A stretch of 64,000 nt of DNA from the IMG/VR virus record IMGVR_UViG_3300044213_000107, positions 186,001-250,000 of that record, one strand, 5' to 3'. A program made the position numbers and the translations under genes. The notes under the pieces are model-generated. The model was not told the DNA's origin and did no database searches. It saw nothing but the letters and a program-made list of their open reading frames with translations. How positions within the stretch are numbered: position 1 is the stretch's first letter; every line of letters begins with the position of its first letter. This stretch comes from a virus. Of this stretch, positions 7,374 through 47,292 are shown piece by piece.

Positions 7374-8216
7374 TTAATTTTTATTTAATAATTTTTTAAA
7401 GAAGTTATTATATTCTTCTAATTTAATTTGTGTTTCTTTTTCGCTAGAAACTATTATATTTACTTTTCCAGATTTCTGTAACTCTTTGGTATTATCTATA
7501 TTACTTTGACATTTTTCAATTAATGTATTAATTTTTTCTTGAGGCATATCTTTTCGTGTCAATAAAAATATATTAATAGAAACCTTATTAAGAGGCGAAT
7601 TTTTTATATCTTTAAATTTAATATATGTAATACCTTTGTCAACATAATTTTGAGCAACAGATTCTGTAGCTATAGTAATATCAGCTCTGCCGGCTAGTGT
7701 ATCAATTAACGGGGCGGTACCACCTCCGTTATATAATACTTGAGTTACAGATATATTTTTTAATTTAAAATAAGTAGAGGTAATTAATGACGACTCTTCT
7801 CCTACATCGGCTGATAGTACTGTAGTCTTATCAATTTGTTTTTTAGAAATTAAATCATCAATGGATTTATATAATGGCGAAATTATGAATACTGGGTCAA
7901 CTGATGCTATTAAACTAATAAATCTAAATTTATCAGTAGGCATAAAATTAAAAAGATTTTTATCTGTCATCGGTGATAATAGAGCTGACGAATTTGGTAC
8001 TACCAAAAAGTCTATTTCTCCAGATTCTAGTGCTTTGTAACCTATATATCCTTTGGCTCCTTGTTTGTTTATAACAACAAAATTTTCATCTTTTGTTAAT
8101 AAACGCATTACCTGTTCATGAAGTGGAATTCCCACATGCCCAATTTTAATAATTTCTGCTGCCATTGTACAAGTTGATAATATCAATAGTATCGCAGTTA
8201 AGATTATTTTTTTCAT
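7374..8216 (-). CDS. TctC/Bug-family periplasmic binding protein-like
   Basis: 280 residues. A signal peptide (MKKIILTAILLILS..., cleavage likely after Ala20) is followed by the tripartite tricarboxylate transporter receptor fold. The hallmark YNGGGTAPLIDTLAGRADI near residues 160-178 corresponds to the YKGG...LLAGxVD ligand-site region of Bug proteins. Bug proteins bind carboxylates in the periplasm and are greatly expanded in Betaproteobacteria. In a phage it may alter host uptake or the cell surface; no transporter genes accompany it. AGAGGAT precedes the ATG. It is probably host-derived. Confidence 0.8.
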   Translation of the reverse strand: MKKIILTAILLILSTCTMAAEIIKIGHVGIPLHEQVMRLLTKDENFVVINKQGAKGYIGYKALESGEIDFLVVPNSSALLSPMTDKNLFNFMPTDKFRFISLIASVDPVFIISPLYKSIDDLISKKQIDKTTVLSADVGEESSLITSTYFKLKNISVTQVLYNGGGTAPLIDTLAGRADITIATESVAQNYVDKGITYIKFKDIKNSPLNKVSINIFLLTRKDMPQEKINTLIEKCQSNIDNTKELQKSGKVNIIVSSEKETQIKLEEYNNFFKKLLNKN

Positions 8217-8228
8217 ATATATCCTCTT

Positions 8229-9374
8229 TTATTCTAAAAAATATGGGTTACTTATGCATGCTTTGACACTTTTTCCCATCTGTGTTGGGTCATTTTTCCA
8301 ATAATCTGGAAGTGTTTTCCACCATTTATCTAATCCAAATTTCCAATTTTTTAATTGAACAGTTTCTTCTTGTAATTTATTTCTAAACCATATGTCTCGA
8401 CCTCCAAAAATTATGCTAGGATATTTCTTGGCTACAATTGCTGTTGGATCCCAATCAGGATATATTAATGTATGAAGACCATCAAGACTTAACCAATACT
8501 TAGTACCATTAAATTCTCTACATGCAATATTACTTGTTTTAAGAGAACAAAATGGTAATTGAGTTATATTGCCTGACAAATAACGCTTAATCATATGTGC
8601 TTGTTTTATTATTGTTTTTGGGAAGTTTGGCGACCAATAAAATAATTCATCAGCATAAGGTTGTTTTCCGGCCATTGCAGTTGCAGTTGTTGCATTATCA
8701 ATTATATCTAAAAATTGAAAATAAAACTTGTCATTTTTATGAAATACCCTCGGCTTATCAGATCCATGCATTACACAAACTTTTTTTCCGGAGTGTATCA
8801 TGTCTGCCCATTCCGGAACAGACATTACCCAATCTCGCATTAACATACCGTTTGGGTTCCAGCACATGTTTAGTTCATAAATCCAATCGAATTTAATCGT
8901 TTTACTTGCCCAGAGATCTAGTTGCATCTGTGTAATATCAAGATATCGAAATTTAAAATTTTGTTTTTGTTGATATTTTTGAACTAATGGTATTGCAGTC
9001 TCAAATATTTCTTCGCTGTAAAGACCAAGTTTATTACCATCTCCTTCGACATTTACCTTACACACTACTTCGTCAAGTTTAATGTCGTTTTTTATAAATG
9101 TATGAAAGATATTTCCACTATCTGGTCCACCGCTCAAACTTAATATAACATAATCATAACTATCTCGTATTTGTTGGGCACGTTGCCGATATAATTCTTC
9201 TAATGATTCCGTAGGTTCTGTGGTCCAATCATAACTACTAAACACAGCTTCATTAAAGTCCCAGTGCAGATGTGTGCCAGTTTTTTGCATCATTTCAATA
9301 GCTTCAAGCTTGCTATAAAATTTTAAATCGCCGACACGATAAACACCGAGTTTATCAGGGAAATCATTTGTCAT
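8229..9374 (-). CDS. PP-loop ATP pyrophosphatase family protein
   Basis: 381 residues with the PP-loop SGGPDS at 81-86 within VILSLSGGPDSGNIFHTF. This motif binds ATP in N-type ATP pyrophosphatases (asparagine synthetase, QueC, ThiI, GMP synthase) that adenylate a carboxylate, amide or nucleobase. The rest does not match a member I know; the middle is rich in Trp (DWVMSVPEWADM) and the end in aromatic residues. It lies directly upstream of the TctC-like gene. The substrate is unknown; amidation or ligation of a surface or peptide group is possible. Confidence 0.75.
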   Translation of the reverse strand: MTNDFPDKLGVYRVGDLKFYSKLEAIEMMQKTGTHLHWDFNEAVFSSYDWTTEPTESLEELYRQRAQQIRDSYDYVILSLSGGPDSGNIFHTFIKNDIKLDEVVCKVNVEGDGNKLGLYSEEIFETAIPLVQKYQQKQNFKFRYLDITQMQLDLWASKTIKFDWIYELNMCWNPNGMLMRDWVMSVPEWADMIHSGKKVCVMHGSDKPRVFHKNDKFYFQFLDIIDNATTATAMAGKQPYADELFYWSPNFPKTIIKQAHMIKRYLSGNITQLPFCSLKTSNIACREFNGTKYWLSLDGLHTLIYPDWDPTAIVAKKYPSIIFGGRDIWFRNKLQEETVQLKNWKFGLDKWWKTLPDYWKNDPTQMGKSVKACISNPYFLE

Positions 9375-9377
9375 GTT

Positions 9378-9737
9378 TTACTGTTGCTCCCAATACATTT
9401 TGTTGTTGACTTGATAAAAATAATCTTTTTCTAAGTTTACCATGTCTGTGTAGTCTACTCTGTAATTTGTTGTTACTCCGTTGGCCCAGACCGTTATACG
9501 AACATAACTAGCAGGTTCACACTCAGGGCGTGGGCCAACTTTTTTATACTCAATGTTCCATCCAGTTTGTCCAGTTTTGACTCGAATACCCTGTCGCCAA
9601 TTTTGTATGATATTTTCAAATTGCTCTTGAGTTAAATGGTATGTATTTGTGCAGTTAGGTGATACTCTAATAGCAAAATCTACATCTCGTCGATCTTTAA
9701 AAAGATATATTTTTAATGGTTGTGAAAATTCTAACAT
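9378..9737 (-). CDS. Hypothetical protein, 119 aa
   Basis: A soluble-looking, aromatic-rich protein of 119 residues (MLEFSQPLKIYLFKDRRDV...). It has alternating hydrophobic residues suggesting a small beta-sheet fold. No catalytic motif is seen. It lies 3 bases upstream of the PP-loop gene and just downstream of tRNA-Gly on the same strand, so it is likely part of the same transcript. Confidence 0.6.
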   Translation of the reverse strand: MLEFSQPLKIYLFKDRRDVDFAIRVSPNCTNTYHLTQEQFENIIQNWRQGIRVKTGQTGWNIEYKKVGPRPECEPASYVRITVWANGVTTNYRVDYTDMVNLEKDYFYQVNNKMYWEQQ

Positions 9738-15547: not shown

Positions 15548-15633
15548 TGGTGGAAGTCCAGGGACTCGAACCCCGTATGCCGTAAGACGTCGGATTTACA
15601 GTCCGATGCAGTAACCTGTTCTGCTCGACTTCC
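15548..15633 (-). tRNA. tRNA-Tyr (GTA)
   Basis: Class II with variable arm. Acceptor GGAAGTC/GACTTCC, anticodon loop CTGTAAA, CCA encoded. Confidence 0.94.
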
Positions 15634-15639
15634 TTTATG

Positions 15640-15724
15640 TGGTGCGGATGGTGAGACTCGAACTCACACACCTTACGGTAATGGCTTCTAAGACCATCTC
15701 GGCTACCAGTTACGACACATCCGC
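15640..15724 (-). tRNA. tRNA-Leu (TAG)
   Basis: Class II. Acceptor GCGGATG/CATCCGC, anticodon loop CTTAGAA, variable arm TACCGTAAGGTG, CCA encoded. Confidence 0.94.
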
Positions 15725-15731
15725 AAAAACT

Positions 15732-15805
15732 TGGAGCGGGATAGGAGAATCGAACTCCTAACTAAACCTTGGCAAGGTTTCGTTTGACCATTAAACTAAT
15801 CCCGC
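15732..15805 (-). tRNA. tRNA-Gly (GCC), copy 2
   Basis: Acceptor GCGGGAT/ATCCCGC, anticodon loop TTGCCAA. It has the same anticodon as the gene at 9743 but differs in D and T arms. Confidence 0.94.
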
Positions 15806-15818
15806 AACTCCGAAAACA

Positions 15819-15894
15819 TGGCTGTCTAGGCAGGGATCGAACCTACGACAGGGTGATTAACAGTCACCTGCTCTACCAACTGAGCTACTAGACA
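15819..15894 (-). tRNA. tRNA-Asn (GTT)
   Basis: Acceptor TGTCTAG/CTAGACA, anticodon loop CTGTTAA, discriminator G, CCA encoded. Confidence 0.94.
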
Positions 15895-15906
15895 ATATTT
15901 ATACTC

Positions 15907-15980
15907 TGGTGCCTCGTGACAGAATCGAACTGCCGTCTGCACCGTGTAAGGATGCGGCCCTACCATTAGACGAACGAGGC
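15907..15980 (-). tRNA. tRNA-Val (TAC)
   Basis: Acceptor GCCTCGT, anticodon loop CTTACAC, T-loop TTCGATT, CCA encoded. Confidence 0.93.
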
Positions 15981-16052
15981 GAAATTTGGCGCCGATTTTT
16001 GTCATTTTAACTGAGGCTAACGAGCACTCCCTCAGATTAGTTGCAACTTATT
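15981..16052. other. tRNA spacer with a CTGAGG/CCTCAG hairpin
   Basis: 72 bases between tRNA-Val and tRNA-Ala hold a 6-bp stem with a 13-base loop (about 16010-16036). No tRNA cloverleaf can be drawn and no T-run follows, so neither a tRNA nor a terminator is claimed. Confidence 0.3.
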
Positions 16053-16126
16053 TGGTGGAGAAGGAGAGAATCGAACTCTCAATTGAAGCTTGCAAAGCTA
16101 CCGTTATCCCATTTAACTACATCCCC
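16053..16126 (-). tRNA. tRNA-Ala (TGC)
   Basis: Anticodon loop TTTGCAA, T-loop TTCGATT, CCA encoded. The acceptor GGGGATG/CTTCTCC has one mismatch and a G-U pair, weaker than its neighbours. The G3-U70 pair required by AlaRS is present. Confidence 0.9.
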
Positions 16127-16130
16127 AAAA

Positions 16131-16280
16131 TTATTCTTTAGTTTGTTCTTTGTGTTCTAGTAGTTTTTGTTGATATTGATCTTCAGTTAAACCATGCCAA
16201 CCACAACACTTACCGTCTGGGCTACGGCCACAACCGCATTTACCAATGTCTTCTGCATTTTCTTGTACTCTCATTTGCAT
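16131..16280 (-). CDS. CDGSH-like mini-protein, 49 aa
   Basis: An ATG at 16278-16280 behind AAAGG opens a 49-residue frame. Residues 15-29 read CGCGRSPDGKCCGWH, a C-x-C...C-x2-x-H arrangement close to the CDGSH 2Fe-2S ligand motif (C-x-C-x2-S...C-x-G-x-H) but one residue shorter. The tail is charged and helical. Such small proteins may carry an Fe-S cluster or zinc; which one cannot be read. It sits inside the tRNA array between Ala and Pro, on the same strand. An ATG two codons in is an alternative start. Confidence 0.65.
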   Translation of the reverse strand: MQMRVQENAEDIGKCGCGRSPDGKCCGWHGLTEDQYQQKLLEHKEQTKE

Positions 16281-16300
16281 GCATTTCCTTTATTAAAAAA

Positions 16301-16377
16301 TGGTCCGTGTGACACGATTCGAACATGCGACCACCTGGTCCCAAACCAGGAGCTCTACCAGGCTGAGCTACACACGG
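16301..16377 (-). tRNA. tRNA-Pro (TGG)
   Basis: Acceptor CCGTGTG/CACACGG, anticodon loop TTTGGGA, T-loop TTCGAAT, CCA encoded. Confidence 0.94.
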
Positions 16378-16382
16378 AAAAC

Positions 16383-16457
16383 TGGATGCGGGAGACGGAA
16401 TTGCACCGCCGATCTTCAGGTTATGAGCCTGATGAGTTACTACTTCTCCATCCCGCG
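16383..16457 (-). tRNA. Initiator-type tRNA-fMet (CAT)
   Basis: The first base C faces A72, the unpaired 1-72 mismatch that marks bacterial initiator tRNA, in CGCGGGA/TCCCGCA. Anticodon loop CTCATAA. The T-loop is TGCAATT rather than TTCAATT, and the usual three G-C pairs under the anticodon are not complete. CCA encoded. Confidence 0.85.
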
Positions 16458-16465
16458 ATAAACAA

Positions 16466-16539
16466 TGGTAAGGGAACTAGGAATCGAACCTAGAATAGCA
16501 GAATCAAAATCTGTTGTGATACCATTTCACTATTCCCCA
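16466..16539 (-). tRNA. tRNA-Gln (TTG)
   Basis: Acceptor TGGGGAA/TTCCCTT, with a weak first pair as in bacterial tRNA-Gln. Anticodon loop TTTTGAT, CCA encoded. Confidence 0.9.
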
Positions 16540-16545
16540 ACGATG

Positions 16546-16621
16546 TGGTACTCGGTAGGGAATTCGAATCCCTGTTCACGCCGTGAAAGGGCGTTGTCCT
16601 AGGCCTCTAGACGAACCGAGC
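16546..16621 (-). tRNA. tRNA-Glu (TTC)
   Basis: Acceptor GCTCGGT, anticodon loop CTTTCAC, T-loop TTCGAAT, CCA encoded. Confidence 0.93.
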
Positions 16622-16630
16622 ATACTTGTT

Positions 16631-16709
16631 TGGCGACTTGTAGGGGATTTGAACCCCTGATCTCTACCGTGACAGGGTAGCGCATTAAGCCAGACTATGC
16701 TAACAAGCC
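16631..16709 (-). tRNA. tRNA-Asp (GTC)
   Basis: Acceptor GGCTTGT, anticodon loop CTGTCAC, T-loop TTCAAAT, discriminator G, CCA encoded. It is the first tRNA downstream of the structured element at 16715. Confidence 0.92.
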
Positions 16710-16714
16710 AAATT

Positions 16715-16952
16715 CTCTATATGTAAACATACCTAAGGAACTCTTGAACAATATGGACTCTGCCGGCACCACGGGTTCGTCTCCCGATTGGGTTCATTCG
16801 TTATTACAGCCTACATGATCTGTCAGTACACTCGTACAGTATCTTGCGATCCGTAACTACCTTCATGTGCACTGCATACTCCGCCCCGGCGAGCTGTCCC
16901 CTTTGCAAGCACCTAACAGTATAGGTAACCTTTTGTACGTTTACATATAGAG
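16715..16952 (-). ncRNA. Candidate structured RNA, about 238 nt, at the head of the tRNA array
   Basis: A perfect 14-bp closing stem (16715-16728 with 16939-16952), extendable by three pairs past one mismatch, encloses about 210 nt without an open frame. On the minus strand the interior contains hairpins ACCTA/TAGGT, CTCGCC/GGCgGAG, GTAC/GTAC and CGGG/CCCG. It is richer in G+C than its flanks. It starts 5 bases beyond tRNA-Asp and lies downstream of two promoters, so it would be cut out of the same precursor. No known RNA family is recognised. Confidence 0.5.
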
Positions 16953-16970
16953 GCTATTGTTTACAATAGC
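16953..16970. other. Perfect 7-bp hairpin adjoining the structured RNA
   Basis: GCTATTG/CAATAGC with a TTTA loop directly abuts the outer end of the 16715-16952 element. It may be a processing signal. The rest of 16971-17022 is AT-rich leader, and 17052-17127 and 17157-17229 hold nothing further that I recognise. Confidence 0.45.
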
Positions 16971-17022
16971 TTATATGTGATTAACTTTTTAAAGAACACA
17001 GTTAATTGCTTAACAAGCATGT

Positions 17023-17051
17023 ATTGTAACACCTTTTTGGACAATTAGCAA
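17023..17051 (-). promoter_or_regulatory. Sigma-70-like promoter P1 of the tRNA array
   Basis: On the minus strand TTGCTA (17046-17051), a 17-base spacer, and TACAAT (17023-17028). It points into the structured RNA and tRNA genes. Confidence 0.65.
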
Positions 17052-17127
17052 GTGTTTTTTACTGCTGTTGCTGATTTGCTACAACGTTTGTTCGATAACA
17101 AACTAGTTAATTTCTTAACTTGTATCT

Positions 17128-17156
17128 ATTATAGCACCAAATAATAACCCGCACAA
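17128..17156 (-). promoter_or_regulatory. Sigma-70-like promoter P2 of the tRNA array
   Basis: On the minus strand TTGTGC (17151-17156), a 17-base spacer, and a consensus TATAAT (17128-17133). It is tandem with P1 about 105 bases upstream. Confidence 0.65.
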
Positions 17157-17234
17157 TCTTCGGGTTTTGGGTGTTGTTTTTTAATAACATGGAGTAGGTG
17201 ACAGGACTTGAAATATATATTATTTCGTTTTGAA

Positions 17235-17242
17235 CATAAATA
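17235..17242 (+). promoter_or_regulatory. Late-type promoter CATAAATA, leaderless arrangement
   Basis: Five bases (ATAAC) separate it from the ATG at 17248. Confidence 0.5.
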
Positions 17243-17247
17243 ATAAC

Positions 17248-18033
17248 ATGAACACCTGTCAACAATGTACTTCATTATTTGCTCAAACTCCTGGAACGTA
17301 CGGTAAATTTTGCTCTGTATCCTGTAGTAGTAAGTTTAATAATAAAATTAGACGCCAACAGACTACGGAAAACTATTTATTAAATCCAAAAGTTTGTAAA
17401 AATTGCAATTCAATCATAAATTATTCTCAAAGAAAAAGTAATATTTTTTGTAGCCGATCCTGCGCCGCTGTGTTTAATAATGCCAAAAAAGATTGGACTA
17501 ATATTAAAACTGGGCCGACACCTAAACAAAAGGCACCGAAATTAAAAAGAAAAGCGAGAACTAATACTATCCCAGATGCAGACGGACCATACACTATTAT
17601 ATACCTATGCACTTGCAAATTTACTGGAAAAAAATGGTACTCCCCAACAGTTAAGACCATACACCCATCAACAATATCAACTAAAAAATTGTATTCTTAT
17701 CAATGTAGATTTAACTTTGGTATTAAGTCGTACCCTGAATGGTTTGCTTATGCATCAAATTTAATAAACACTAACGGCTGGTACTCAGCCTCTAATAGAG
17801 GTAATAATTTATCTGGATGTTCTCGTGATCATTTGTATTCAGTATCGGATGGATACAAAAACAATATAGATCCTAAAATAATATCTCATCCTGCAAACTG
17901 TGAGATAATTCCGCACAGGAAAAATCAGAGTAAAAACAAGACTTCGTCGATTACATTAGAAGAACTAAAAGAAAGAATCAAAAAATTTAATCAAAAATAT
18001 TTGGAGATGCCAGATGGGGTCGAGCCATCCTAG
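17248..18033 (+). CDS. HNH-type homing endonuclease with two zinc ribbons
   Basis: I start at ATG 17248 (MNTCQQCTSLF), because an upstream in-frame TTG would place the promoter inside the gene. The product has 261 residues. Two Cys-x2-Cys...Cys-x3-Cys ribbons lie in the first 80 residues, then a basic linker. A C-terminal HNH-like core has SRDHLYSVSDG, NNIDPKIISHPANCEII and PHRKNQSKN. The last nine codons lie antisense inside tRNA-Cys. It is a plus-strand insertion between tRNA-Asp and tRNA-Cys. Confidence 0.8.
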   Translation: MNTCQQCTSLFAQTPGTYGKFCSVSCSSKFNNKIRRQQTTENYLLNPKVCKNCNSIINYSQRKSNIFCSRSCAAVFNNAKKDWTNIKTGPTPKQKAPKLKRKARTNTIPDADGPYTIIYLCTCKFTGKKWYSPTVKTIHPSTISTKKLYSYQCRFNFGIKSYPEWFAYASNLINTNGWYSASNRGNNLSGCSRDHLYSVSDGYKNNIDPKIISHPANCEIIPHRKNQSKNKTSSITLEELKERIKKFNQKYLEMPDGVEPS

Positions 18034-18075
18034 AAAGTTTTGCAGGCTTCCACCTAACCGCTCGGACATGGCATC
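18002..18075 (-). tRNA. tRNA-Cys (GCA), C-initial T-loop
   Basis: Acceptor GATGCCA/TGGCATC, anticodon loop CTGCAAA, T-stem GATGG/CCATC. The T-loop is CTCGACC where TTCGACC is expected. CCA encoded. The C-terminus of the HNH gene overlaps it on the other strand. Confidence 0.87.
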
Positions 18076-18125
18076 GTAATATAAAAATTTTAGTGTGGTA
18101 GTTCGGCGCACACCTACATAATAAA

Positions 18126-18218
18126 TGGTGGAAGCGGTGAGACTCGAACTCACACACCCTGTTGAGAGCCCTCAGTTTTCAAGACTGCTGCCGCTATGCC
18201 GATTCGGCTAACGCTTCC
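18126..18218 (-). tRNA. tRNA-Ser (TGA)
   Basis: Class II. Acceptor GGAAGCG/CGCTTCC, anticodon loop CTTGAAA, long variable arm, CCA encoded. Confidence 0.94.
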
Positions 18219-18220
18219 AA

Positions 18221-19402
18221 TTATACTGGGAATACTTCCCTAAAATTTGTTTTTCTTATACGATCTAACATACCAATATATTCGTTAAATGTATTGATTA
18301 AGTTAGGATTGTGCACAGCATTTTCCAATGAGTTTATTGTAAATTTAATCGCTGATATATAGTTATATCGCAGATAATGCGTTAAAGGAATCTGAGATTT
18401 TAGTTCTTGCAAATCGAGAATAAATTGATTTCTTTGTGCATCTGTTAACACTTCTATGTCTAAATATGGTTTAGACATTAATCTACCAACATTCACAGCA
18501 TATGAGTTATCAACACAATATTGAATTAATGGTATCAACGCCCAGAAACTTGTATACTGTAGTGTATGGCCAATGGTAATAGGATTATTAGGCCATGTAG
18601 GATTAGGACGTGTGGCTAATTTTTTAATATTAGCATCTACGGTTGCCCACTCACTACCATATCTAACATATTCTGTATGTTGCTCGGTACCTTCTAAACT
18701 TACAACTATTGCAACAGATTTAAATTTTGAAATACAATCGTATACTTCATCTGTTAATGTTGTACCGTTTGTGGTAACTGTTAAATTTAATTGCTCCGGA
18801 TGCGGAATGCTTTTTAACATTGCAATAGCATTAGGAGTTATAAGTGGCTCGCCACCTGTTAAAAAAATATGTTCAACATTTTCTAATAGTCGAGGCTCCA
18901 GCTCTTGATATTCATCTGTTTCAAACCAATTTCTTTTTTGTATAAATTGATCATCATGAGTTAAGTGAACAAAATTTTTATATTGTTCTCTATTCATTTT
19001 TACTTCAGTTTCTATACTAGAACTGCAATAAGGATTACACATTATACATTTTAAATTACAGTGATTGCCAAATTCAACATGTAAATGTTTTATGCCATAA
19101 GATTTATCTGGTGAAAAATCTTGTCTAATAAAATTTTCAAATGTGCGATTACCATTTATTCTGTACGACGATGATCCATTGTCTTCTTCGTCCCAACAAC
19201 GACTACAACCTTCATGTCTTTGGCCATTGTCTAGTTCTTGACTAATTTTAATAACTTTTGTTTGTCGCCAACGATCAAATTGATCATATTTATCAACCAA
19301 ATTACCATCTTTTATTTGATAATTACAACAAGGTGTAAGTGTGCCGTCTGTGCGAATATTAACACCAATATGCGAATGTATACAAAATGTTTCTTGATTC
19401 AT
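18221..19402 (-). CDS. Radical SAM protein, Cys-rich N-terminus (copy 2)
   Basis: I start at ATG 19400-19402 (MNQETFCIHSHIG), because TATAAATA lies exactly 5 bases upstream; an ATG seven codons earlier overlaps the promoter. The product has about 393 residues: N-terminal CNYQ-type cysteines (PCC, GCSRCWDEE), the core HCNLKCIMC motif (C-x3-C-x2-C), then LTGGEPLI. It is closely related in layout to the genes at 3495 and 34842. It ends 3 bases from tRNA-Ser. The substrate is unknown. Confidence 0.8.
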   Translation of the reverse strand: MNQETFCIHSHIGVNIRTDGTLTPCCNYQIKDGNLVDKYDQFDRWRQTKVIKISQELDNGQRHEGCSRCWDEEDNGSSSYRINGNRTFENFIRQDFSPDKSYGIKHLHVEFGNHCNLKCIMCNPYCSSSIETEVKMNREQYKNFVHLTHDDQFIQKRNWFETDEYQELEPRLLENVEHIFLTGGEPLITPNAIAMLKSIPHPEQLNLTVTTNGTTLTDEVYDCISKFKSVAIVVSLEGTEQHTEYVRYGSEWATVDANIKKLATRPNPTWPNNPITIGHTLQYTSFWALIPLIQYCVDNSYAVNVGRLMSKPYLDIEVLTDAQRNQFILDLQELKSQIPLTHYLRYNYISAIKFTINSLENAVHNPNLINTFNEYIGMLDRIRKTNFREVFPV

Positions 19403-19407
19403 AGTGA

Positions 19408-19415
19408 TATTTATA
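19408..19415 (-). promoter_or_regulatory. Late-type promoter TATAAATA, leaderless arrangement
   Basis: A perfect octamer followed by TCACT and the ATG of the radical SAM gene. No Shine-Dalgarno is present. Confidence 0.55.
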
Positions 19416-19432
19416 TGCAACATATATTGTAA

Positions 19433-19527
19433 TATTCTAAAACTGATTAGTTTCGGGAGATGTCCGTCCTATACAACCGGCCCTTTCAATGAGCCTGTAA
19501 AATATTCTTCTACTCAGTTTTAGAATA
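19433..19527 (-). ncRNA. Hairpin element: 14-bp perfect stem with 67-nt head
   Basis: Arms 19433-19446 and 19514-19527 are fully complementary. The head holds CGGG- and GGCC-containing segments and no frame of note. The size and build match the element at 13386-13478, though the sequences differ. It lies directly upstream of the late promoter of the radical SAM gene. Confidence 0.45.
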
Positions 19528-19674
19528 CCCTTTATTGCTAGAGGATATGATAGGGTCAATACCCTACCCAGGAGTCTTACTAATCGGTTTCCGCCCGACG
19601 TTCATGTATCCTGTCCGCCCGTTTGTGCTAGTTAAAGTGAGCACGGGACCTCGTTTCCCTTGAGCACTCGATTC
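19528..19674 (-). other. GC-rich structured spacer next to the 14-bp hairpin element
   Basis: 147 bases without a gene. Visible pairings are TAGGGT/ACCCTA around CAAT (about 19550-19565), AGGATA with TATCCT, and a hairpin with CCC, GTGCT, AGCAC and GGG near 19617-19648. Together with the preceding hairpin it forms a roughly 240-nt structured block downstream of the 49-residue gene. Confidence 0.4.
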
Positions 19675-19824
19675 TTAGCGTTTTTGCATCTTGCCTGCAA
19701 GTTTTTTTATTGCAGCAATATGCAGTTCTGCTCTACGTACTTTACTCTCTATTAAAGCAACTCGTTGTTCTGGTGTTAGAACATGTTGCTCTTTGAGAGG
19801 TTTAGTATTCTTTTTTTCTAACAT
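19675..19824 (-). CDS. Small basic helical protein, 49 aa
   Basis: An ATG at 19822-19824 behind AAAGGA opens a frame beginning MLEKKNTKPLKEQHVL. It continues with a Lys/Arg-rich helix (EQRVALIESKVRRAELHIAAIKK) and ends KMQKR. The composition suggests nucleic-acid binding or a coiled coil. It lies just after the strong terminator at 19847, so it needs its own transcription or readthrough. Function is unknown. Confidence 0.6.
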   Translation of the reverse strand: MLEKKNTKPLKEQHVLTPEQRVALIESKVRRAELHIAAIKKLAGKMQKR

Positions 19825-19846
19825 CTTTTTCCTTTGTAAAAAACAA

Positions 19847-19873
19847 AACCCCGGAGTGTTTAGTTCCGGGGTT
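19847..19873 (-). terminator. Strong intrinsic terminator
   Basis: A 9-bp perfect stem (AACCCCGGA/TCCGGGGTT) with a 9-base loop, followed on the minus strand by TTTTGTTTTTT. It closes the small unit that starts at the promoter at 20031-20059. Confidence 0.85.
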
Positions 19874-19897
19874 CTGTGAATCTCAACTAAACAGTTA

Positions 19898-20023
19898 CTA
19901 AGATTTAAGAACCCCTACACGATCATTATTAATACTTGTTGAACGCACAGATTCGCACCAAAAGGCTGGTGTTAGCTGTTTGCCTAACATATAATAATGA
20001 TTGCTAATGAGTTTGTTTAACAT
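19898..20023 (-). CDS. Leaderless 41-aa ORF or sRNA
   Basis: An ATG at 20021-20023 sits where the sigma-70-like promoter at 20031-20059 should start transcription, so the message would be leaderless. The frame (MLNKLISNHYYMLGKQLT... to RVGVLKS) ends 25 bases before the terminator. Promoter, frame and terminator make a unit of about 175 nt. Whether the product is the peptide or the RNA is open; a small hairpin GTTAG/CTAAC lies within it. No known family is recognised. Confidence 0.45.
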   Translation of the reverse strand: MLNKLISNHYYMLGKQLTPAFWCESVRSTSINNDRVGVLKS

Positions 20024-20030
20024 AGTATCT

Positions 20031-20059
20031 ATTGTAGTATATTTATCTTTATTCGTCAA
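20031..20059 (-). promoter_or_regulatory. Sigma-70-like promoter
   Basis: On the minus strand TTGACG (20054-20059), a 17-base spacer, and TACAAT (20031-20036). It is the closest to consensus of the -35 boxes found here. Confidence 0.75.
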
Positions 20060-20078
20060 CTATTTATTTATCCAAAAA

Positions 20079-20396
20079 TTATCCATGAATAATTGTTTCG
20101 TCGTCGAAATAACCTTGCGTAAGAGCAGTTAACTCAGGACTTGGCGTTGGTATATCCGGTGCGTTTTCTGCGCTTACTTCTTCCCAGCCGACTACAACAC
20201 CATTTTCAACGATTTCTGTTGCAGTAGAATGCCCGGCTGCTTGGTGTGCTTGTTTTTCGGCTGTGTGTTGTTCCCACAAAGTTTTAAATTTAGTTAAGTC
20301 ATCGCCTGTTAAATGGTCATTTACCCACTGTTCAATAGAATACGGAACTTTTGTTCCATCTGGCATTACCTTAACTGCAATCTTTTTTGTTGTCAT
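20079..20396 (-). CDS. Hypothetical protein, 105 aa
   Basis: 105 residues (MTTKKIAVKVMPDGTKV...), mostly helical with a Thr- and Pro-rich region before a GYFDDETIIHG end. AAAGGAG precedes the ATG and ACTAAATA lies at 20422-20429, so it looks like a late gene and perhaps a minor virion protein. No domain is recognised. Confidence 0.6.
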   Translation of the reverse strand: MTTKKIAVKVMPDGTKVPYSIEQWVNDHLTGDDLTKFKTLWEQHTAEKQAHQAAGHSTATEIVENGVVVGWEEVSAENAPDIPTPSPELTALTQGYFDDETIIHG

Positions 20397-20421
20397 AATA
20401 GACTCCTTTAGTATATGTTTA

Positions 20422-20429
20422 TATTTAGT
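20422..20429 (-). promoter_or_regulatory. Late-type promoter ACTAAATA
   Basis: It lies 25 bases before the ATG of the 105-residue gene, with a Shine-Dalgarno between. Confidence 0.45.
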
Positions 20430-20455
20430 TTTCTTTATAAAAAAGAATACAATAC

Positions 20456-21778
20456 CTATTTTTTAAACCATTGGTATACAATTGATTCTGCAGGTTTGTT
20501 TCTAATACTTTGACTGATATTAGGGAAAGTTGTGTGAGCTTGGATATTATCAGCTAACCAATATGAATTGATAGAAAACGACTCTACATTAACATATTGT
20601 TGTTCGTTAATTGTTTCTAACATAGATTCATAAGCAATTGCTTGAACACTAAAATCTGTAGTTAATGTAGCAGCACAATTTAGTGACCAACACCCGCTGT
20701 CTTCTACCCAGCCCTGGCTTAGGGTATGATTCCAACTTTGTACTTGTGCAACTATTTCTATCGGCTTTGTTGTACCGTATGTGTTTTGGGCACCATGCAA
20801 TGTTGTTGCATAATAGGGTTTAAGTACTGCAACACTAAGATTTTGTTCATCAGATGAACTAATTCTTCCCACTAATGATCCAATTGTTACAACAATTTTA
20901 TCTACAGAATCTGTAACCGATTTGCTATATACCCAGGATTGTTCTAGTACTAATTTACCAGAATAAATAGCTCTTAATTTATTTGCTAGATTGACCAATG
21001 ATTGTTCTCTTATACCTGCAAAATTTGTAAAGTCAGGAGTCCAATCGTCCCAATCTAAAGTCATGCTTTCATACCCAGAAGATTGTAATATGACTGCCTG
21101 CGATGTCATATAGTTACTATATGCGGTATATAAATCACTAAGCCATTGATTATTTGTAATGACTAAATTCTGCCCGACACTATCTGTAGTACATATCTGC
21201 ATTTTATAACGAATATTAAGTCCAATTGCATGAGCTTGTTGTGCCATCCAGGTTAAGTCTGCGGCAGGAATGCTTTCTCTTCCAAAAAGTGAAAAATCTT
21301 GTCCTGGCGTACTTGCTGATGCTATACAAATATATTGAGGTACTGTTACATATGTGCCACCTAATGCTTTTATTCTCTGTATTGTTTGCACAAATGCAGT
21401 ATGCATATCTGAATTACACCCTGGATTATTTGGTGTTTTTTGACTACCTGGATCTAACCAACTATCTTTTATAGTCAGACCCAATTGAAGAGTAGCCGGC
21501 ATGTGTCCCGATACAGCAGGCAAAGGAAATGCGCCTTGATATGATGCAGGATATTGAACTGTTGTAGTAGATAACAAACATGTATCGTCGACTACCGGCA
21601 ATGTTTGAATTTGTGTATATGTACCGGGATATGTATTTGCGGTAATGTTGGTATTGATTGCCACAAAAGATCCTGTTTGTGGTTGGACCGGGACTGAGGT
21701 CGATGCACCACCACCTCCGCATGCGGTTAATATCAAAGATGCAGAAAAAAGTAATACTAAAGTTTTAAACATATGCAT
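20456..21778 (-). CDS. Lipoprotein with glycoside-hydrolase-like barrel
   Basis: 440 residues. The N-terminus MFKTLVLLFSASLILTAC is a lipoprotein signal with the lipobox LTAC and Cys20, followed by GGGG, which favours an outer-membrane lipoprotein. The body resembles TIM-barrel glycoside hydrolases of the GH113/cellulase-like kind, with TWMAQQAHAIGLNIRYKMQI and ESMTLDWDDWTPDF, the acidic strand end expected at an active site. It may act on surface polysaccharide or block superinfection; both are inference. The start may be the second ATG, two codons in. Confidence 0.6.
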   Translation of the reverse strand: MHMFKTLVLLFSASLILTACGGGGASTSVPVQPQTGSFVAINTNITANTYPGTYTQIQTLPVVDDTCLLSTTTVQYPASYQGAFPLPAVSGHMPATLQLGLTIKDSWLDPGSQKTPNNPGCNSDMHTAFVQTIQRIKALGGTYVTVPQYICIASASTPGQDFSLFGRESIPAADLTWMAQQAHAIGLNIRYKMQICTTDSVGQNLVITNNQWLSDLYTAYSNYMTSQAVILQSSGYESMTLDWDDWTPDFTNFAGIREQSLVNLANKLRAIYSGKLVLEQSWVYSKSVTDSVDKIVVTIGSLVGRISSSDEQNLSVAVLKPYYATTLHGAQNTYGTTKPIEIVAQVQSWNHTLSQGWVEDSGCWSLNCAATLTTDFSVQAIAYESMLETINEQQYVNVESFSINSYWLADNIQAHTTFPNISQSIRNKPAESIVYQWFKK

Positions 21779-21844
21779 ACCTAGTTAAAAGACATGTGCG
21801 TATTATAATATATTTTTGAATGTTGGACAATTGGTTGTTGCAAA

Positions 21845-24216
<2,372 letters not shown>

Positions 24217-30529: not shown

Positions 30530-31624
30530 TTAAAATCCTGCGAGCATAACAAATGGCATTGGATCTATGAAATCTTCTAGGTCATTACGTACACTTTCGT
30601 CTAATTCGGCATCAAAAGTCTGCAATAATTGTATCATACGAACACACAATAACATACTCATAACTAAATCGTCAGTTTCGCCTATTTTTGCAGCAAAGCT
30701 AGTGCCGTGTGCTACAAAGTTTTTAAGTTCACTAATTAAATTATTACTTGCAATGTGCAGACGTTTGTTTTCAATTAATGCTTTTAACTTAGCACAAACT
30801 GATATCTTGGATTTATTTGAAGTGGTAAATCCTTTGCGATACACCCTTGATACACCCGCACGCTTAGGTTCACTTAAAAAGGTACCACGAATATTTTCTT
30901 CGCCCATTTCCGCAATGGTAACCAATGCTGCTTCCCCTAATGTATTATTTTCTACGCTGTAATAGATGTTATTTTCTGTGCCAATTATATCGTATATGTA
31001 TTGGCAAACTTCTTTCATTATACCTACTTGTTTTTGGATAGGAGTTTTATTGTGTTGCCATTCGGCTACCTGTTTCATTGATGGCAATTCAACCACTTGT
31101 AGTGCTGCGTAATCGCCACCGGTGCCCAGGCTAGGATCCAGGCCGACTGCATAAGTATATCCTTTTTCAGGTTTTTTATACCAGCGAACTTGCCCTTGTT
31201 TTTCAATTGGATCTATACCGGCCAGTTCTACTAGATGCAAAGGGTTAATAAGCGTCTCATCAAAAATAATGAATTCGCAATTTGATGACAGCACTCCGTT
31301 TGTGTAATATCTATGACCACCTTCAACCTCTACTAAGTCATATACTAACTGTGTTTTGCCCGTGTCCGTGACCCCAATGATCTTAATTTCTCCGTTCTTG
31401 GATAATACTATGTCCCCAACAGTAAGTTCGTTCAACGGAACTCTAGTAGTATCATCAATAAACAACTTATGGTTGTTGGTGCACTCTAACCAATAGTCCT
31501 GCTCAAACTCAACTCTGCATATTGGGCGAGTTCCCAGGCAACGTATTCCTACAAATGATTTATATCCATCAGGAGTCAAAACTTTATACCCGTGTATATT
31601 TTCTTTAAAAGTTACTTCTGCCAT
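30530..31624 (-). CDS. 17: Terminase large subunit, C-terminal half, fused behind the intein C-part (IntC-TerL-C)
   Basis: 364 residues in two parts. Residues 1-115 are the C-part of a split intein: block B TNNH at 49-52, block F VYDLVEV...HRYYTNG, block G GVLSSN ending at Asn115, then Cys116 as the +1 nucleophile. Residues 116-364 are the terminase nuclease half: CEFIIFDETLINP, the acidic YAVGLDPSLG (Asp163), VENN, and ETDDLVMSML with the distal Asp. After splicing it would rejoin the ATPase half made from 32649. The penultimate residue is Ser, not the usual His. Confidence 0.88.
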   Translation of the reverse strand: MAEVTFKENIHGYKVLTPDGYKSFVGIRCLGTRPICRVEFEQDYWLECTNNHKLFIDDTTRVPLNELTVGDIVLSKNGEIKIIGVTDTGKTQLVYDLVEVEGGHRYYTNGVLSSNCEFIIFDETLINPLHLVELAGIDPIEKQGQVRWYKKPEKGYTYAVGLDPSLGTGGDYAALQVVELPSMKQVAEWQHNKTPIQKQVGIMKEVCQYIYDIIGTENNIYYSVENNTLGEAALVTIAEMGEENIRGTFLSEPKRAGVSRVYRKGFTTSNKSKISVCAKLKALIENKRLHIASNNLISELKNFVAHGTSFAAKIGETDDLVMSMLLCVRMIQLLQTFDAELDESVRNDLEDFIDPMPFVMLAGF

Positions 31625-32616
31625 GTTAGTATCTCGTAGTTATTTTTATCAGTAAACAGCCAAACCTCGTACTCAAATCCCTGTTGTAAAACGGAATCTT
31701 TTTTACGTACATTATTAGTTAATCGTGATTTGTATTTTTTATCTCCGTTACCGTCCCACCACCACCGACTTTTTACTTCAATTATTTTATTTTCTTTTGT
31801 AATCAATATATCTGGATAATATAAAGCTGTGTGTTGATTGACGTTTATATATTCAAACTTTGGTAGATCATAGACCGATTTCCTATCATCAAATTGTAGG
31901 TCGGATTCCTCATAAATTTCTAATAACTTAGTTATTGTTATATCTTCATACCCCCTAACACCAATTACACGCCCAGATGGAAGGACAAATTCTCTTCCTA
32001 AACTATTTGATTTTGCTGAATTTGTTCTTGCTTCAGGTTTCATTAATGCGTTCTCAACACCAAATTTTGTCAAACATGTTGCACGCCGTTTGTCGGCAAT
32101 TTCACTGATTTTTTCAGCTGACATTGCTTGCCAAGATGCACTTGTTTGTTTGCTATTAGCATAATATTCATCACCATAACGTTCAAATTTGGTTTTCTTA
32201 GATTTATGTTTGTATGTTGCAGATTGCGTTACCCATTCTACATCATATTTTTTTCTAAAAGTTTCTTTGGATTTTATAACTTGTGATTGTATTTGTTCTT
32301 GTGTTCTTGCACTGGCCGCTAATCTTTTATTATTAGAATCGGTATTCCTTTGTTCTATAGTCCAAGACCGTTTAGTATTGGATATGCTTAGTCCCACACA
32401 TTTAGGGTCACCGCAACTATTAGCATAGGTTTCTGTTTTTTGATAAAATGATAGGGCATTCCCGCATCTACATTTTGGGGATGTTTTGGTAATATATGTT
32501 TCAATATACTGTTGGTACGTTAGATTGTTATTTCTTAAATGCCTAGTAAATTGACCATTGGTTTTACAATAAGTTTTATGATCTATTACTGATGTTATAT
32601 ATTTTGTTTTAGACAT
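31612..32616 (-). CDS. Homing endonuclease inside the fractured terL, Vsr-like EDxHD/PD-(D/E)xK family
   Basis: I start at ATG 32614-32616 (MSKTKYITSVID..., 334 residues); upstream in-frame TTG or GTG starts are possible. A Cys-rich segment (CRCGNALSF...CGDPKCVG) precedes repeated helices and a C-terminal nuclease: GYEDITITKL, then INVNQHTALYYPDI and KIIEVKSRWW, matching the E-D, H and PD...ExK residues of the Vsr-like homing family found with split inteins. It fills the gap between terminase halves, overlaps the downstream half by 13 bases and has GATAAATA at 32650. Confidence 0.82.
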   Translation of the reverse strand: MSKTKYITSVIDHKTYCKTNGQFTRHLRNNNLTYQQYIETYITKTSPKCRCGNALSFYQKTETYANSCGDPKCVGLSISNTKRSWTIEQRNTDSNNKRLAASARTQEQIQSQVIKSKETFRKKYDVEWVTQSATYKHKSKKTKFERYGDEYYANSKQTSASWQAMSAEKISEIADKRRATCLTKFGVENALMKPEARTNSAKSNSLGREFVLPSGRVIGVRGYEDITITKLLEIYEESDLQFDDRKSVYDLPKFEYINVNQHTALYYPDILITKENKIIEVKSRWWWDGNGDKKYKSRLTNNVRKKDSVLQQGFEYEVWLFTDKNNYEILTWQK

Positions 32617-32648
32617 ACATTTCTCTGCTAAATCGTTCACGAGCAAGA

Positions 32649-33566
32649 TTATTTATCTAAAATATCAAACAATTCAGAAATTGTTAAGGTTCGTGCACTG
32701 TCATCGACTACAACATCTAATAGTGTATTACCGTTACAGCACTCCATTTCACGACGGAAGCGTTCTTCACCAAGTTGTGCTCGCATTTCTGCAGCCCATT
32801 TTTCATCACGATCTGGGTGTTCTCGCCAAGCACTACGGAATGCTTTAAATCCATTGATGCCTAGCTCAGTTTGGTTTCCAAACTCGTCAATGGTCTTATT
32901 AGCACCTTTCCAAATCTGTGCAAATTGATCTTCGTCTGAGTTTGGGGTACTAGTAATAATACACTTACCACCAGTTGATAGCGTAGGTGTAATCGACGTC
33001 CAGAATTCTTGTGCAATAGTCGGTCTTACGAAAGCAAACTCATCACAGTATAATAAGGATATACTCATACCACGACCGGTATTTTCTGTAGTCGTAGCAC
33101 TTACAATACGTGATCCATTTTCAAAGTCTAATGATCCCTTGTTATAACTTGTTACTCCTGCTCGTATATGATCTGGGCAATTTTCATATGCATATCGCAC
33201 ACGTTGCATAATTTCTTGTGCACCTGTATATTTGTGGGCTGCAACCAAAATAGTTGAATCGGGAACAAACATAGCATACCAAAGTAAATACCCTGCAGCA
33301 CTTGTAGATTTCCCCGTTTGTCTTGGCATTAGGCTAATAGAGAACCTATAATTGTGATAGCTATCTATTAGACGTTCTTGATACTCAAAAGGATGATATT
33401 GGATGGCTCCTTTTGTTGGGTGTTGTATAAAAAAGTAATTGTTCATGAAATATTGTGGACCAGTTACTGGGTCGGCACAATGAACAAATTCTGTAAATTG
33501 TTCTTTCGAAAGACTCATTTTTTTATAAGGAGTCTTTATGATAGATAGTTCGTTGGAATTACTCAT
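32649..33566 (-). CDS. 17: Terminase large subunit, N-terminal ATPase half, ending in the intein N-part (TerL-N-IntN)
   Basis: 305 residues. Walker A PRQTGKST at 81-88, Walker B LLYCDEFAF with Asp175-Glu176 and TSTPNSDED as the coupling motif mark the gp17 ATPase that powers DNA packaging. The terminase sequence runs to ...RREME (275). Residues 276-305 (CCNGNTLLDVV...ISELFDILDK) are a 30-residue intein N-part with the block A pattern C-x2-G-x-T. Splicing with the product of 30530 would give RREME-CEFIIFDETL, the normal terminase sequence. Confidence 0.9.
   Translation of the reverse strand: MSNSNELSIIKTPYKKMSLSKEQFTEFVHCADPVTGPQYFMNNYFFIQHPTKGAIQYHPFEYQERLIDSYHNYRFSISLMPRQTGKSTSAAGYLLWYAMFVPDSTILVAAHKYTGAQEIMQRVRYAYENCPDHIRAGVTSYNKGSLDFENGSRIVSATTTENTGRGMSISLLYCDEFAFVRPTIAQEFWTSITPTLSTGGKCIITSTPNSDEDQFAQIWKGANKTIDEFGNQTELGINGFKAFRSAWREHPDRDEKWAAEMRAQLGEERFRREMECCNGNTLLDVVVDDSARTLTISELFDILDK
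32650..32657 (-). promoter_or_regulatory. Late-type promoter GATAAATA overlapping the end of the intein N-part
   Basis: The octamer is formed by the last codons of TerL-N-IntN (GAT AAA TAA) and points into the homing endonuclease gene. Confidence 0.4.
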
Positions 33567-33574: not shown

Positions 33575-33581
33575 TACTTAT

Positions 33582-34112
33582 ATGGAAACACTATTATTAA
33601 ATCGAGATTTGGCACCTATATCAATATTACCACTAAGTGTTATTGGTTGGCAACATGCTATAAAATTAATGTTTTTAGATCGCATTGAAGTACTTGAATC
33701 ATATGAAGATCGAGTAGTCCGTAGTGAAAAGTTGACCATTAATGTCCCTGCTGTGGCCATGACCAAAGAGTATTTTAACTATAAAAAAGGTGTAAAATTC
33801 AGTCGCCATAATTTGTATTTACGTGATTTGTATCAATGCCAGTATTGTGCAGACACATTTAATGTTAAAGATCTTACCATTGATCATGTTATACCTAGAG
33901 TAAGTGGTGGTGGCACTAATTGGGAAAATTGTGTTACTTCTTGTAGAACGTGCAATAGTCGCAAAGGCAGCAAATTACAAAAGCCATTGCGTATGCCGTT
34001 TAAGCCTAGTTACTATAAATTGATACAAACATGGAAAGATCGTCATTTTCATGTTAACCATCCAAGTTGGTATCGTTATTTAGGTGTAGAAGAAAAACAG
34101 GCCAACACTTAA
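33582..34112 (+). CDS. HNH endonuclease
   Basis: 176 residues. An N-terminal LLLNRDLAPISILPLSVIGW module is followed by an HNH core: CQYC, TIDHVIPRVSGGG with the first His, NWEN, and CRTCNSRKG. This is a widespread free-standing HNH type found in phages and bacteria, often beside terminase genes where HNH proteins can assist packaging. Here it is divergent from terL and overlaps the end of the next minus gene by 4 bases. Homing and packaging roles are both possible. Confidence 0.85.
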   Translation: METLLLNRDLAPISILPLSVIGWQHAIKLMFLDRIEVLESYEDRVVRSEKLTINVPAVAMTKEYFNYKKGVKFSRHNLYLRDLYQCQYCADTFNVKDLTIDHVIPRVSGGGTNWENCVTSCRTCNSRKGSKLQKPLRMPFKPSYYKLIQTWKDRHFHVNHPSWYRYLGVEEKQANT

Positions 34113-45998: not shown

Positions 45999-46045
45999 TA
46001 TATATAACTTTTTTTGGTTATTAGAGGTGCCTTTAAGAAAACCTT

Positions 46046-46053
46046 TATAAATA
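46046..46053 (+). promoter_or_regulatory. Late-type promoter TATAAATA, leaderless arrangement
   Basis: A perfect octamer followed by TTTTT and the ATG at 46059. No Shine-Dalgarno is present. Confidence 0.55.
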
Positions 46054-46058
46054 TTTTT

Positions 46059-46679
46059 ATGAAAAAATACGCTGGATTTGTATACGAAACAACAAATGTC
46101 ATAACAGGTATGAAATATATCGGGAGTTATATTGGCTTAGATACTGATATTTGTTTTGGTAATAGTAGATCTATAGAAAAAGATATTAAAAAATACGGGA
46201 TAGAAAACTTTTCAAGAAGTATATTAGAATATGTAAAATCAATTAATGTTCTAGCTGAAGCCGAGTCTGCGTGGCTTAAAAGCGTAAATGCTAAATCTAA
46301 CCCAATGTATTTTAATCGCAGCAATAAATCTTCGCAAAGAGAAGTTTGCGGTGCATGTAATACAAATCTAGTAGCAGTAAATTATGTCACTGCAAATAGA
46401 ACATATTATAGAAAACTATGTTCAAGTTGTATTCGTAAAGGTAAAAAAATAAAACTCTCAGCACCTGCTTGGTTTAAGGCGGGATATAGGAAACGTGACA
46501 AATGTGAAAATTGTGGCTTCAAAGGCAAACACCTTGAACAACTTAGGGTGTTCTATATAGATGGCGATAAAGAAAACAATAACGCTTACAATTTAAGAAC
46601 AATATGCTTAAACTGTCAAGTTGATGCAGTTAAAAGTAAAACTCGTTGGTTACCTGCCGAAATTATAGCAGATTTTTAA
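46059..46679 (+). CDS. GIY-YIG/zinc-finger putative homing endonuclease
   Basis: I start at ATG 46059 (MKKYAGFVYETTN, 206 residues); a TTG 45 bases upstream lies before the promoter and is unlikely. The N-terminus is GIY-YIG-like (GFVYETTNVITGMKYIGSYIG, then RSIEKDIKKYGIENF). The C-terminal half has Cys-x2-Cys pairs (VCGACN, LCSSCI, KCENCGFKGK, ICLNCQ) in an HNH-derived zinc finger whose His is replaced (LRVFYIDGDKENN), so that half likely only binds DNA. It sits between gp18 and dNMP kinase on the opposite strand. Confidence 0.75.
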   Translation: MKKYAGFVYETTNVITGMKYIGSYIGLDTDICFGNSRSIEKDIKKYGIENFSRSILEYVKSINVLAEAESAWLKSVNAKSNPMYFNRSNKSSQREVCGACNTNLVAVNYVTANRTYYRKLCSSCIRKGKKIKLSAPAWFKAGYRKRDKCENCGFKGKHLEQLRVFYIDGDKENNNAYNLRTICLNCQVDAVKSKTRWLPAEIIADF

Positions 46680-47292
46680 TTTGTTTATGTAGTTCGTCAA
46701 TTGTAGAATTGTTGTCGGCAACAAAGTCAAATTTTGAGCCAACCCAACTATATTCACTTGGGTGTACTTTTAATTTTCTTAGTTTTTCTTGACTTAGGCT
46801 CCAGGTTGAATTTCCATTAGGTCCACAATTAACACTACAAGCTGCATCATACCACTCGGGTTCAGATCCACGTTTTACTCGTATGCAAATACCACCTGAA
46901 TTTTTAATAGCAGCAATTTCATTTGGAAAACGTACATCACTAATAACAATATTATCTGTGGTTTTACGCAATTTATTTTCAAGGCTTGCAATCCACATAT
47001 CGTCATGGAAGGCGTTTCTAATAACTTCTGTGCCCCAATATTGTAGTACCCAACGCGGAGTTAAGTCGGGCATATTGAGTCGTTCTGCCCACCAGGGATC
47101 TACTTGCTCACGCCATTCACGAGCTTCTTTTGTACGGCCTTCTAGTAAGATTCTGTCCCAGCCAAATACAACTGCAACAGCATCTTTTAAGGTATTTGCA
47201 AAACTTTCTCTTCTAAATTCATGACAATTAACAAGATAATCTGCAACTGTGTCTTTGCCTGAGCCGATAAAGCCTGATATTCCAATAATCAT
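46663..47292 (-). CDS. 1: Deoxynucleoside monophosphate kinase, gp1-type
   Basis: I start at ATG 47290-47292 (MIIGISGFIGSGKDT), which has AAAAGG at good spacing; an upstream ATG would add an odd 18-residue leader. 209 residues. The P-loop GFIGSGKDT, DPWWAERL, VLQYWGTEVIR and ISDVRFPNE match T4 gp1-type dNMP kinases, which phosphorylate dTMP, dGMP and hydroxymethyl-dCMP. It feeds dNTPs to phage replication. Confidence 0.9.
   Translation of the reverse strand: MIIGISGFIGSGKDTVADYLVNCHEFRRESFANTLKDAVAVVFGWDRILLEGRTKEAREWREQVDPWWAERLNMPDLTPRWVLQYWGTEVIRNAFHDDMWIASLENKLRKTTDNIVISDVRFPNEIAAIKNSGGICIRVKRGSEPEWYDAACSVNCGPNGNSTWSLSQEKLRKLKVHPSEYSWVGSKFDFVADNNSTIDELHKQIKNLL

Follow-up and report, generated by a model that had tools for sequence, protein, structure and literature searches.

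Conserved enzyme genes that are broken by split inteins, with free-standing endonuclease genes between the halves, were reportedly described from phage-like genomes by Dassa and co-workers in 2009. A gene of this kind, encoding the terminase large subunit (TerL, gene terL), lies in the stretch of DNA analysed here (the window), which comprises 64,000 nucleotides (positions 186,001 to 250,000) of the 260,723-bp virus record IMGVR_UViG_3300044213_000107, a phage genome of roughly 260 kb. The terL of the window is broken into two minus-strand genes, terL-N for the ATPase half ending in the N-terminal intein part (IntN) and terL-C for the C-terminal intein part (IntC) and the nuclease half, with a homing-type endonuclease gene (HEG) between them. 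The locus is a fractured terL with an atypically split intein of the AceL type, a previously known kind of arrangement. This had been proposed in a first-pass annotation made from the letters alone and was borne out in all tests run.

The AceL-, GOS- and Cat-TerL inteins splice and have published IntN lengths of 25 (AceL), 30 (Cat) and 37 (GOS-TerL) residues (PMC11766414). The window shares with them the split just after block A, the host protein TerL and an IntC homologous to CatC, which is an engineered consensus of the AceL and GOS TerL inteins. Its IntN lies within the 25-37-residue range, and the insertion precedes an extein starting with Cys-Glu, as in CatC, where the final intein residue is followed by CE in the chain. 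Cys1 and Cys+1 are likewise found in AceL and Cat, whereas GOS has Ser1. Differences from the AceL type are the length of IntC (115 versus 104 residues) and the residue preceding the terminal Asn, which is Ser and not His; both halves had been annotated as longer than usual, which holds for IntC but not for the 30-residue IntN. The window resembles the fractured genes of Dassa and co-workers in that a split intein interrupts the gene of a conserved enzyme, a free-standing endonuclease gene separates the halves and the genome is phage-like. It differs in the type of endonuclease (DUF7487 with PD...ExK and no evident EDxHD/Vsr motif) and in the overlap of the HEG and IntC frames. Phage MIJ3, a jumbo phage with a related terL, has a split intein in PolB, the two halves of which are separated by an HNH endonuclease gene (PMC6892783); host gene and nuclease are different there, and the block layout indicates the usual, later split. 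In Vibrio phage Va1 (MK387337), terL is broken at the same linker, with an endonuclease between the halves and an IntN starting with CVSGSTIINIF, but the endonuclease is of the DUF559 type and is fused in one open reading frame (ORF) with IntC and the C-terminal part of TerL.

Intein halves and the splice junction

Both exteins are recognised as parts of a terminase. The terL-N product matches Pfam Terminase_6N (E 1.5e-16) and its extein phrog_36964 (E 2.5e-66), and the terL-C product matches Terminase_6C (E 9.6e-9), with a nuclease half similar to the solved terminase nuclease domain 3c6a (E 5e-15). PHROG terminase profile 36964 covers the two halves in abutting order, the first match ending at 629 and the second starting at 626. 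The C-extein is 49-51% identical to TerL of PA5oct/Phosso-like phages.

The predicted splice would join EERFRREME to CEFIIFDETLINPLHLVE, and the predicted ligated TerL would contain the junction peptide ...FRREMECEFIIFDETL.... In two intein-free terL genes from IMG/VR (L128 and L129), the junction RREME|CEFIIFDETL is uninterrupted at 33 of 33 residues, in agreement with the annotation, according to which the joined exteins form a normal terminase. The two extein DNA matches to intact terL meet at one point with zero gap, the N-extein aligning through its last codon (about 75-79% DNA identity), and the exteins were complete and contiguous around the site in 76 of the 80 intein-free matches fetched. 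Since intein-free terL is collinear across the junction, the splice points are fixed by comparison as well as by motif. It was also checked whether residues 276-305 of the first product and 1-115 of the second might be ordinary terminase sequence; intact terminases lack both segments and align flush at the junction.

The ORFs, frames and residues of both intein parts were confirmed: IntN (residues 276-305 of the terL-N product) reads CCNGNTLLDVVVDDSARTLTISELFDILDK, and IntC ends in GVLSSN, directly followed by CEFIIFDETL. IntC matched CatC (6dsl; E 6e-10, 33% identity in the alignment) and VidaL (6vgv; E 2e-5), and IntN alone, too short as a query, gave no match in the PDB. The residues of a class 1 intein are present (C276, T49-N-N-H52, N115 and C+1), and a sub-threshold match to Pfam Intein_splicing covers residues 30-74 of the terL-C product. 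C1 is aligned and invariant across 18 IntN sequences, and Cys1, the terminal Asn and Cys+1 are kept in each complete IntN/IntC of the lineages with this HEG. The penultimate His, which is usual but not obligatory in class 1 inteins, is replaced by Ser in the window. This Ser had been singled out as peculiar; it is present as annotated but hardly an oddity, being found in nearly all lineages with this HEG (His only in L023), and several inteins without the penultimate His can splice (PMC7664689). A piecewise search of the genome detected no intein match elsewhere than at the terL locus and one copy of the HEG.

The endonuclease gene and its expression

The mechanically derived ORF of the HEG begins with TTG, but the alignment and the position of the ribosome-binding site favour an ATG further downstream, preceded by AGAG, which is most likely the start. 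The gene product consists of a Zn-ribbon-like N-terminal part, repeats and a C-terminal PD-(D/E)xK domain, and belongs to PF24308/DUF7487 (E 6e-31), as do all 17 aligned members of the HEG family. The PHROGs label 'homing endonuclease' (phrog_3339) applies to 14 of these 17, and phrog_3339/12131 support it for the window gene. Four N-terminal cysteines are invariant in the alignment, as are E234, P278-D279 and E290-x-K292 in the C-terminal part, all intact in the window copy. The nuclease domain was modelled confidently with AlphaFold2 (predicted local distance difference test 91.6, predicted template modelling score 0.84). Foldseek matches of this domain were weak and comprised influenza PA endonuclease, RecE, SSO0001 and Vsr, which we take to be nucleases of the PD-(D/E)xK superfamily. 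Because of the invariant PD...ExK, the confident domain fold and these matches, weak but of that superfamily, the HEG product is probably a PD-(D/E)xK endonuclease. It had been annotated as Vsr-like with both EDxHD and PD...ExK motifs; the latter stood, whereas no EDxHD motif was found in the HEG, the Vsr match (1vsr) was weak (probability 0.93, E 0.12) and a PDB profile search with the 17-member alignment gave no match, so that an EDxHD/Vsr identity was rejected. The ratios of non-synonymous to synonymous substitution (dN/dS) between the window and L004 were 0.21 for the HEG, 0.15 for IntC and 0.12 for the N-extein. Since synonymous change far exceeds non-synonymous change, HEG and IntC are under purifying selection and thus maintained as functional genes.

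The T4 late promoter core NATAAATA was found nine times, against 0.9 expected, in the 60-nt leaders of the 51 minus-strand ORFs of the window. Over the whole window, TATAAATA was not enriched, the enrichment concerning only its placement before genes. One such box, GATAAATA, lies across the stop codon of IntN, and a (G/A/C)ATAAATA box is found at the matching position in about 11 of 19 lineages. Box placement and leader enrichment make it plausible, as annotated, that the HEG has its own late promoter in the end of IntN, its use being predicted from sequence. In 15 of 16 lineages, IntC starts with an ATG within the final codons of the HEG, with an overlap of 10-29 nt (13 nt in the window). Because the IntC start overlaps the HEG end, translation of the HEG and of IntC-TerL-C is likely coupled, and loss of the HEG would therefore cost an essential gene. 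In two lineages without HEG (L026, L028), the two terL ORFs overlap directly. Another late-promoter-like box, TATAAGTA, is located just upstream of terL-N. The opposite strand carries an HNH endonuclease gene (HNH_5, E 2e-17; 33582-34112, plus strand) immediately upstream of terL-N, and its first base overlaps this box.

Distribution, mobility and alternative explanations

Searches of IMG/VR returned 37 loci with IntC and 46 with the endonuclease as query. After removal of duplicates, about 20 distinct lineages have a close relative of the HEG (40% identity or more) between the intein halves at the terL site of the window, and the HEG is at this site in every locus in which a close relative and its downstream gene are included. 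Distant relatives (22-33% identity, L080-L092) have neither terL nor IntC adjacent within the available DNA. In a tree of 100 terL sequences, at least nine changes between empty and occupied site are needed by parsimony, at least five of them forced by strongly supported branches, and the nearest neighbours of the window have an empty site. Between L059 and L060, DNA identity is 99% for the HEG and 91% for IntC, compared to 68-80% for the exteins. The block of near-identity (L059 about 2560-3905, L060 about 3940-5280) comprises the end of IntN, the HEG and most of IntC; its left edge is sharp and lies about 12 codons before the IntN end. Because this edge falls inside IntN and the front of IntN is diverged, the block appears to be a transfer tract, by which HEG and IntC would have entered an allele with its own IntN. 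A horizontal move of the HEG independently of terL between the window, L004 and L050 was considered and rejected, since the approximately unbiased test did not reject a single terL clade for the three (p 0.32). The intein halves are retained in lineages in which the HEG carries a frameshift (L024/L078 and L014), occurs twice in tandem (L023/L074) or is missing (L026, L028), states which would represent stages of a homing life cycle.

In the proposed mechanism, which is highly probable as a whole, the terL-N and terL-C precursors would be made separately and IntN and IntC would associate, whereupon a class 1 reaction (Cys1, terminal Asn, Cys+1) would join RREME to CEFIIFDETL and yield one normal TerL. 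The HEG product most likely cuts terL alleles without the insertion, and repair would copy the IntN-HEG-IntC block into them (homing), with which the identity block of L059/L060 is consistent. The HEG would probably be transcribed from its own late promoter, and coupling of its translation to IntC-TerL-C by the overlapping frames would make it hard to delete. Several observations weigh against this explanation. Foldseek support for the HEG is weak (best E 0.006, with the full-length model), blocks B and F reach the Pfam intein model only under its cut-off, and Ser at the penultimate position could slow the final splicing steps. Among the fractured lineages, the trees of HEG, IntC and terL largely agree, and much of the inheritance would therefore be vertical. 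A search for a target-site remnant beside the window HEG found none, and in most lineages the scores were no better than those of shuffles.

An assembly error or a frameshift in an ordinary terL might be suspected in a metagenome-derived record, in which splits are often artefacts. The probability of this is negligible, as independent assemblies of diverged phages show the identical arrangement, which refutes it; moreover, both halves carry sequence without counterpart in normal terL, the IntC with homology to inteins, and the insert has a conserved gene of its own. Because the same three-gene order is repeated on several independent contigs and intact terL matches both exteins flush, the fractured arrangement is real, neither chance nor assembly error. 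Two halves that never splice and form a non-covalent terminase, with the intein parts as docking tags, are conceivable since the break falls at the linker between ATPase and nuclease, and the missing penultimate His could be taken in the same sense. Such a two-chain enzyme is nevertheless very improbable: the three catalytic positions Cys1, terminal Asn and Cys+1 are retained throughout the complete IntN/IntC of the HEG lineages, the related AceL-, GOS- and Cat-TerL inteins splice (PMC11766414) and several inteins can do without the penultimate His (PMC7664689), and breaks in relatives fall within the Walker A or B motif, which would seem to require a covalent link. It is also unlikely that the HEG no longer serves homing at this site and, as a passenger or with a role elsewhere, is kept by translational coupling to the essential terL-C. 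The position of the IntC start, which falls within the end of the HEG in all but one of 16 lineages, whereby reading of the HEG may be needed for coupled translation, the persistence of frameshifted HEGs (L024/L078, L014) and the congruence of the HEG and terL trees would fit this, whereas the intact window HEG with its invariant active-site residues and a dN/dS of about 0.2, the HEG-free split halves in L026 and L028, by which the gene is not indispensable, and the identity block in L059/L060 argue against it.

Origin of the break and dispersal of terL

L042 carries a contiguous mini-intein at the terL site of the window. The intein of L041 is about 95% DNA-identical to it (exteins 71-77%) and is broken by a GIY-YIG endonuclease gene inserted exactly in front of the internal ATG with which IntC begins. 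Just upstream of this gene, there is a 17-nt scrap (GAGTGTGAGTTCTTAGG, encoding ECEFLG) of the uninterrupted terL target, with a 12-nt exact match across the junction that was above 100 of 100 shuffles. In collaborative homing, the endonuclease is pre-adapted to the insertion site (review PMC2988022), and the scrap appears to fit what this process would leave.

In relatives, terL is interrupted at three sites, one in Walker A (GK|T), one in Walker B (LLY|CDE) and one in the linker (RRE|CEF), where terL of the window is also broken. L007 has a large contiguous intein at Walker A; at Walker B and the linker it has split inteins accompanied by endonuclease genes, its terL consisting of three genes. 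In L104, three split inteins are accompanied by one to two endonuclease-like genes each (CapR-containing, GIY-YIG and DUF559 among them), and the third terL piece has one frameshift. The 306-kb record G002 contains three terL pieces with matching intein halves spread over 60 kb on both strands; its first terL fragment was searched for and not found, and an independent contig (L029/G006) also carries the second piece alone. L042, L104 and G002, as well as L059, are each known from a single contig.

Split inteins also break terL in cultured phages of Escherichia coli, Yersinia, Shewanella, Campylobacter and Vibrio. The break is in or close to Walker B in Krischvirus, Yersinia TG1/phiR1-RT, Shewanella Thanatos-2 and Campylobacter CP21, and at the linker in Vibrio Va1. 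Escherichia phage kaaroe, cultured on K-12, is another relative whose terL is broken. The records annotate such genes as two 'terminase' genes or as one terminase with hypothetical proteins. In Krischvirus and Thanatos-2, IntN is fused with a nuclease region; in Va1, IntC is. All 40 genomes of Fletchervirus (Campylobacter phages) in INPHARED carry separate terL-N and terL-C genes, which in CP39 and NCTC12673 lie about 24-27 kb apart on opposite strands. The first of these genes ends in an IntN of 28 aa and the second begins with an IntC, the break being that in Walker B, and the two lack an endonuclease gene between them; in CP39 none adjoins either half. The terL of Fletchervirus appears to harbour an unannotated dispersed split intein, of which no description was found in the literature searchable here, most subscription papers lying outside that scope.

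Table 1. Positions of terL genes, intein parts and associated features in the window and in other phage records
Feature	Record	Position	Strand	Remarks
terL-N gene	window	33566-32649	-	305 aa; ATPase half ending in IntN
terL N-extein, residues 1-275, ATPase half	window	32742..33566	-	Pfam, PHROG, alignment to intact terL
IntN, 30 aa, residues 276-305	window	32652..32741	-	C1 is the first Cys of CCNGNT (block A)
IntN stop codon	window	32651-32649	-	
Late-promoter-like GATAAATA	window	32650..32657	-	overlaps IntN end and stop codon, upstream of HEG
HEG, 334 aa	window	31612..32616	-	from ATG 32616; alternative TTG 32646 (344 aa)
HEG/IntC overlap, 13 nt	window	31612..31624	-	overlap seen in 15/16 lineages
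terL-C gene	window	31624-30530	-	364 aa; IntC, then nuclease half
IntC, 115 aa	window	31280..31624	-	block B T49-x-x-H52; ends SSN
terL C-extein, RNase H-like nuclease half	window	30533..31279	-	starts at Cys+1, CEFIIFDETL
terL-C stop codon	window	30532-30530	-	
Late-promoter-like TATAAGTA	window	33575..33582	-	just upstream of terL-N
Compared intein regions	L041 vs L042	2478-3177 vs 1001-1100		
terL in four pieces	L104 (IMGVR_UViG_3300005753_000057)	1827-9500		all three sites broken
terL piece (L105)	G002:C1	169361-170113	-	
terL piece (L106)	G002	200204-201526	-	
terL piece (L107)	G002	230001-230795	+	
terL-N	CP39 (MH107028)	68946-69662	-	L222 2447-3163
terL-C	CP39 (MH107028)	93501-94829	+	L210 3498-4826
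terL halves	NCTC12673 (NC_015464)	46027-46743 and 72894-74222	- and +	
Split terL, cultured phage	MN850574 (L008)	15570-23751		
Split terL, cultured phage	KP202158 (L213)			
Split terL, cultured phage	MT457553 (L212)			
Split terL, cultured phage	HE815464 (L208)			
Split terL, cultured phage	MK387337 (L209)			

The interest of the window locus lies in the comparative series of its relatives more than in the length of IntN or the Ser. With middling confidence, phage terL may preserve the whole path to a permanently split gene, from the mini-intein of L042 over the endonuclease-broken L041 to the frame-locked HEG of the window and about 20 lineages, followed by decay or loss of the HEG (L026, L028), breaks at up to three sites (L007, L104) and dispersal (Fletchervirus, G002). 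If this is true, TerL would need three splicing events in the lineages with repeated breaks (L007, L104). PF24308 (DUF7487), a family without assigned function, is now tied to putative intein-associated PD-(D/E)xK endonucleases. Fast split inteins with a short IntN are used in protein chemistry, and few natural atypically split inteins have, to our knowledge, been characterised; the family of the window adds about 20, nearly all with a penultimate Ser. The relatives offer paired unsplit and split versions of one intein, which bears on the origin of split inteins, and the HEG transfer tracts with mapped edges, together with cultured phages carrying fractured or dispersed terL, make splicing and homing amenable to testing at the bench.

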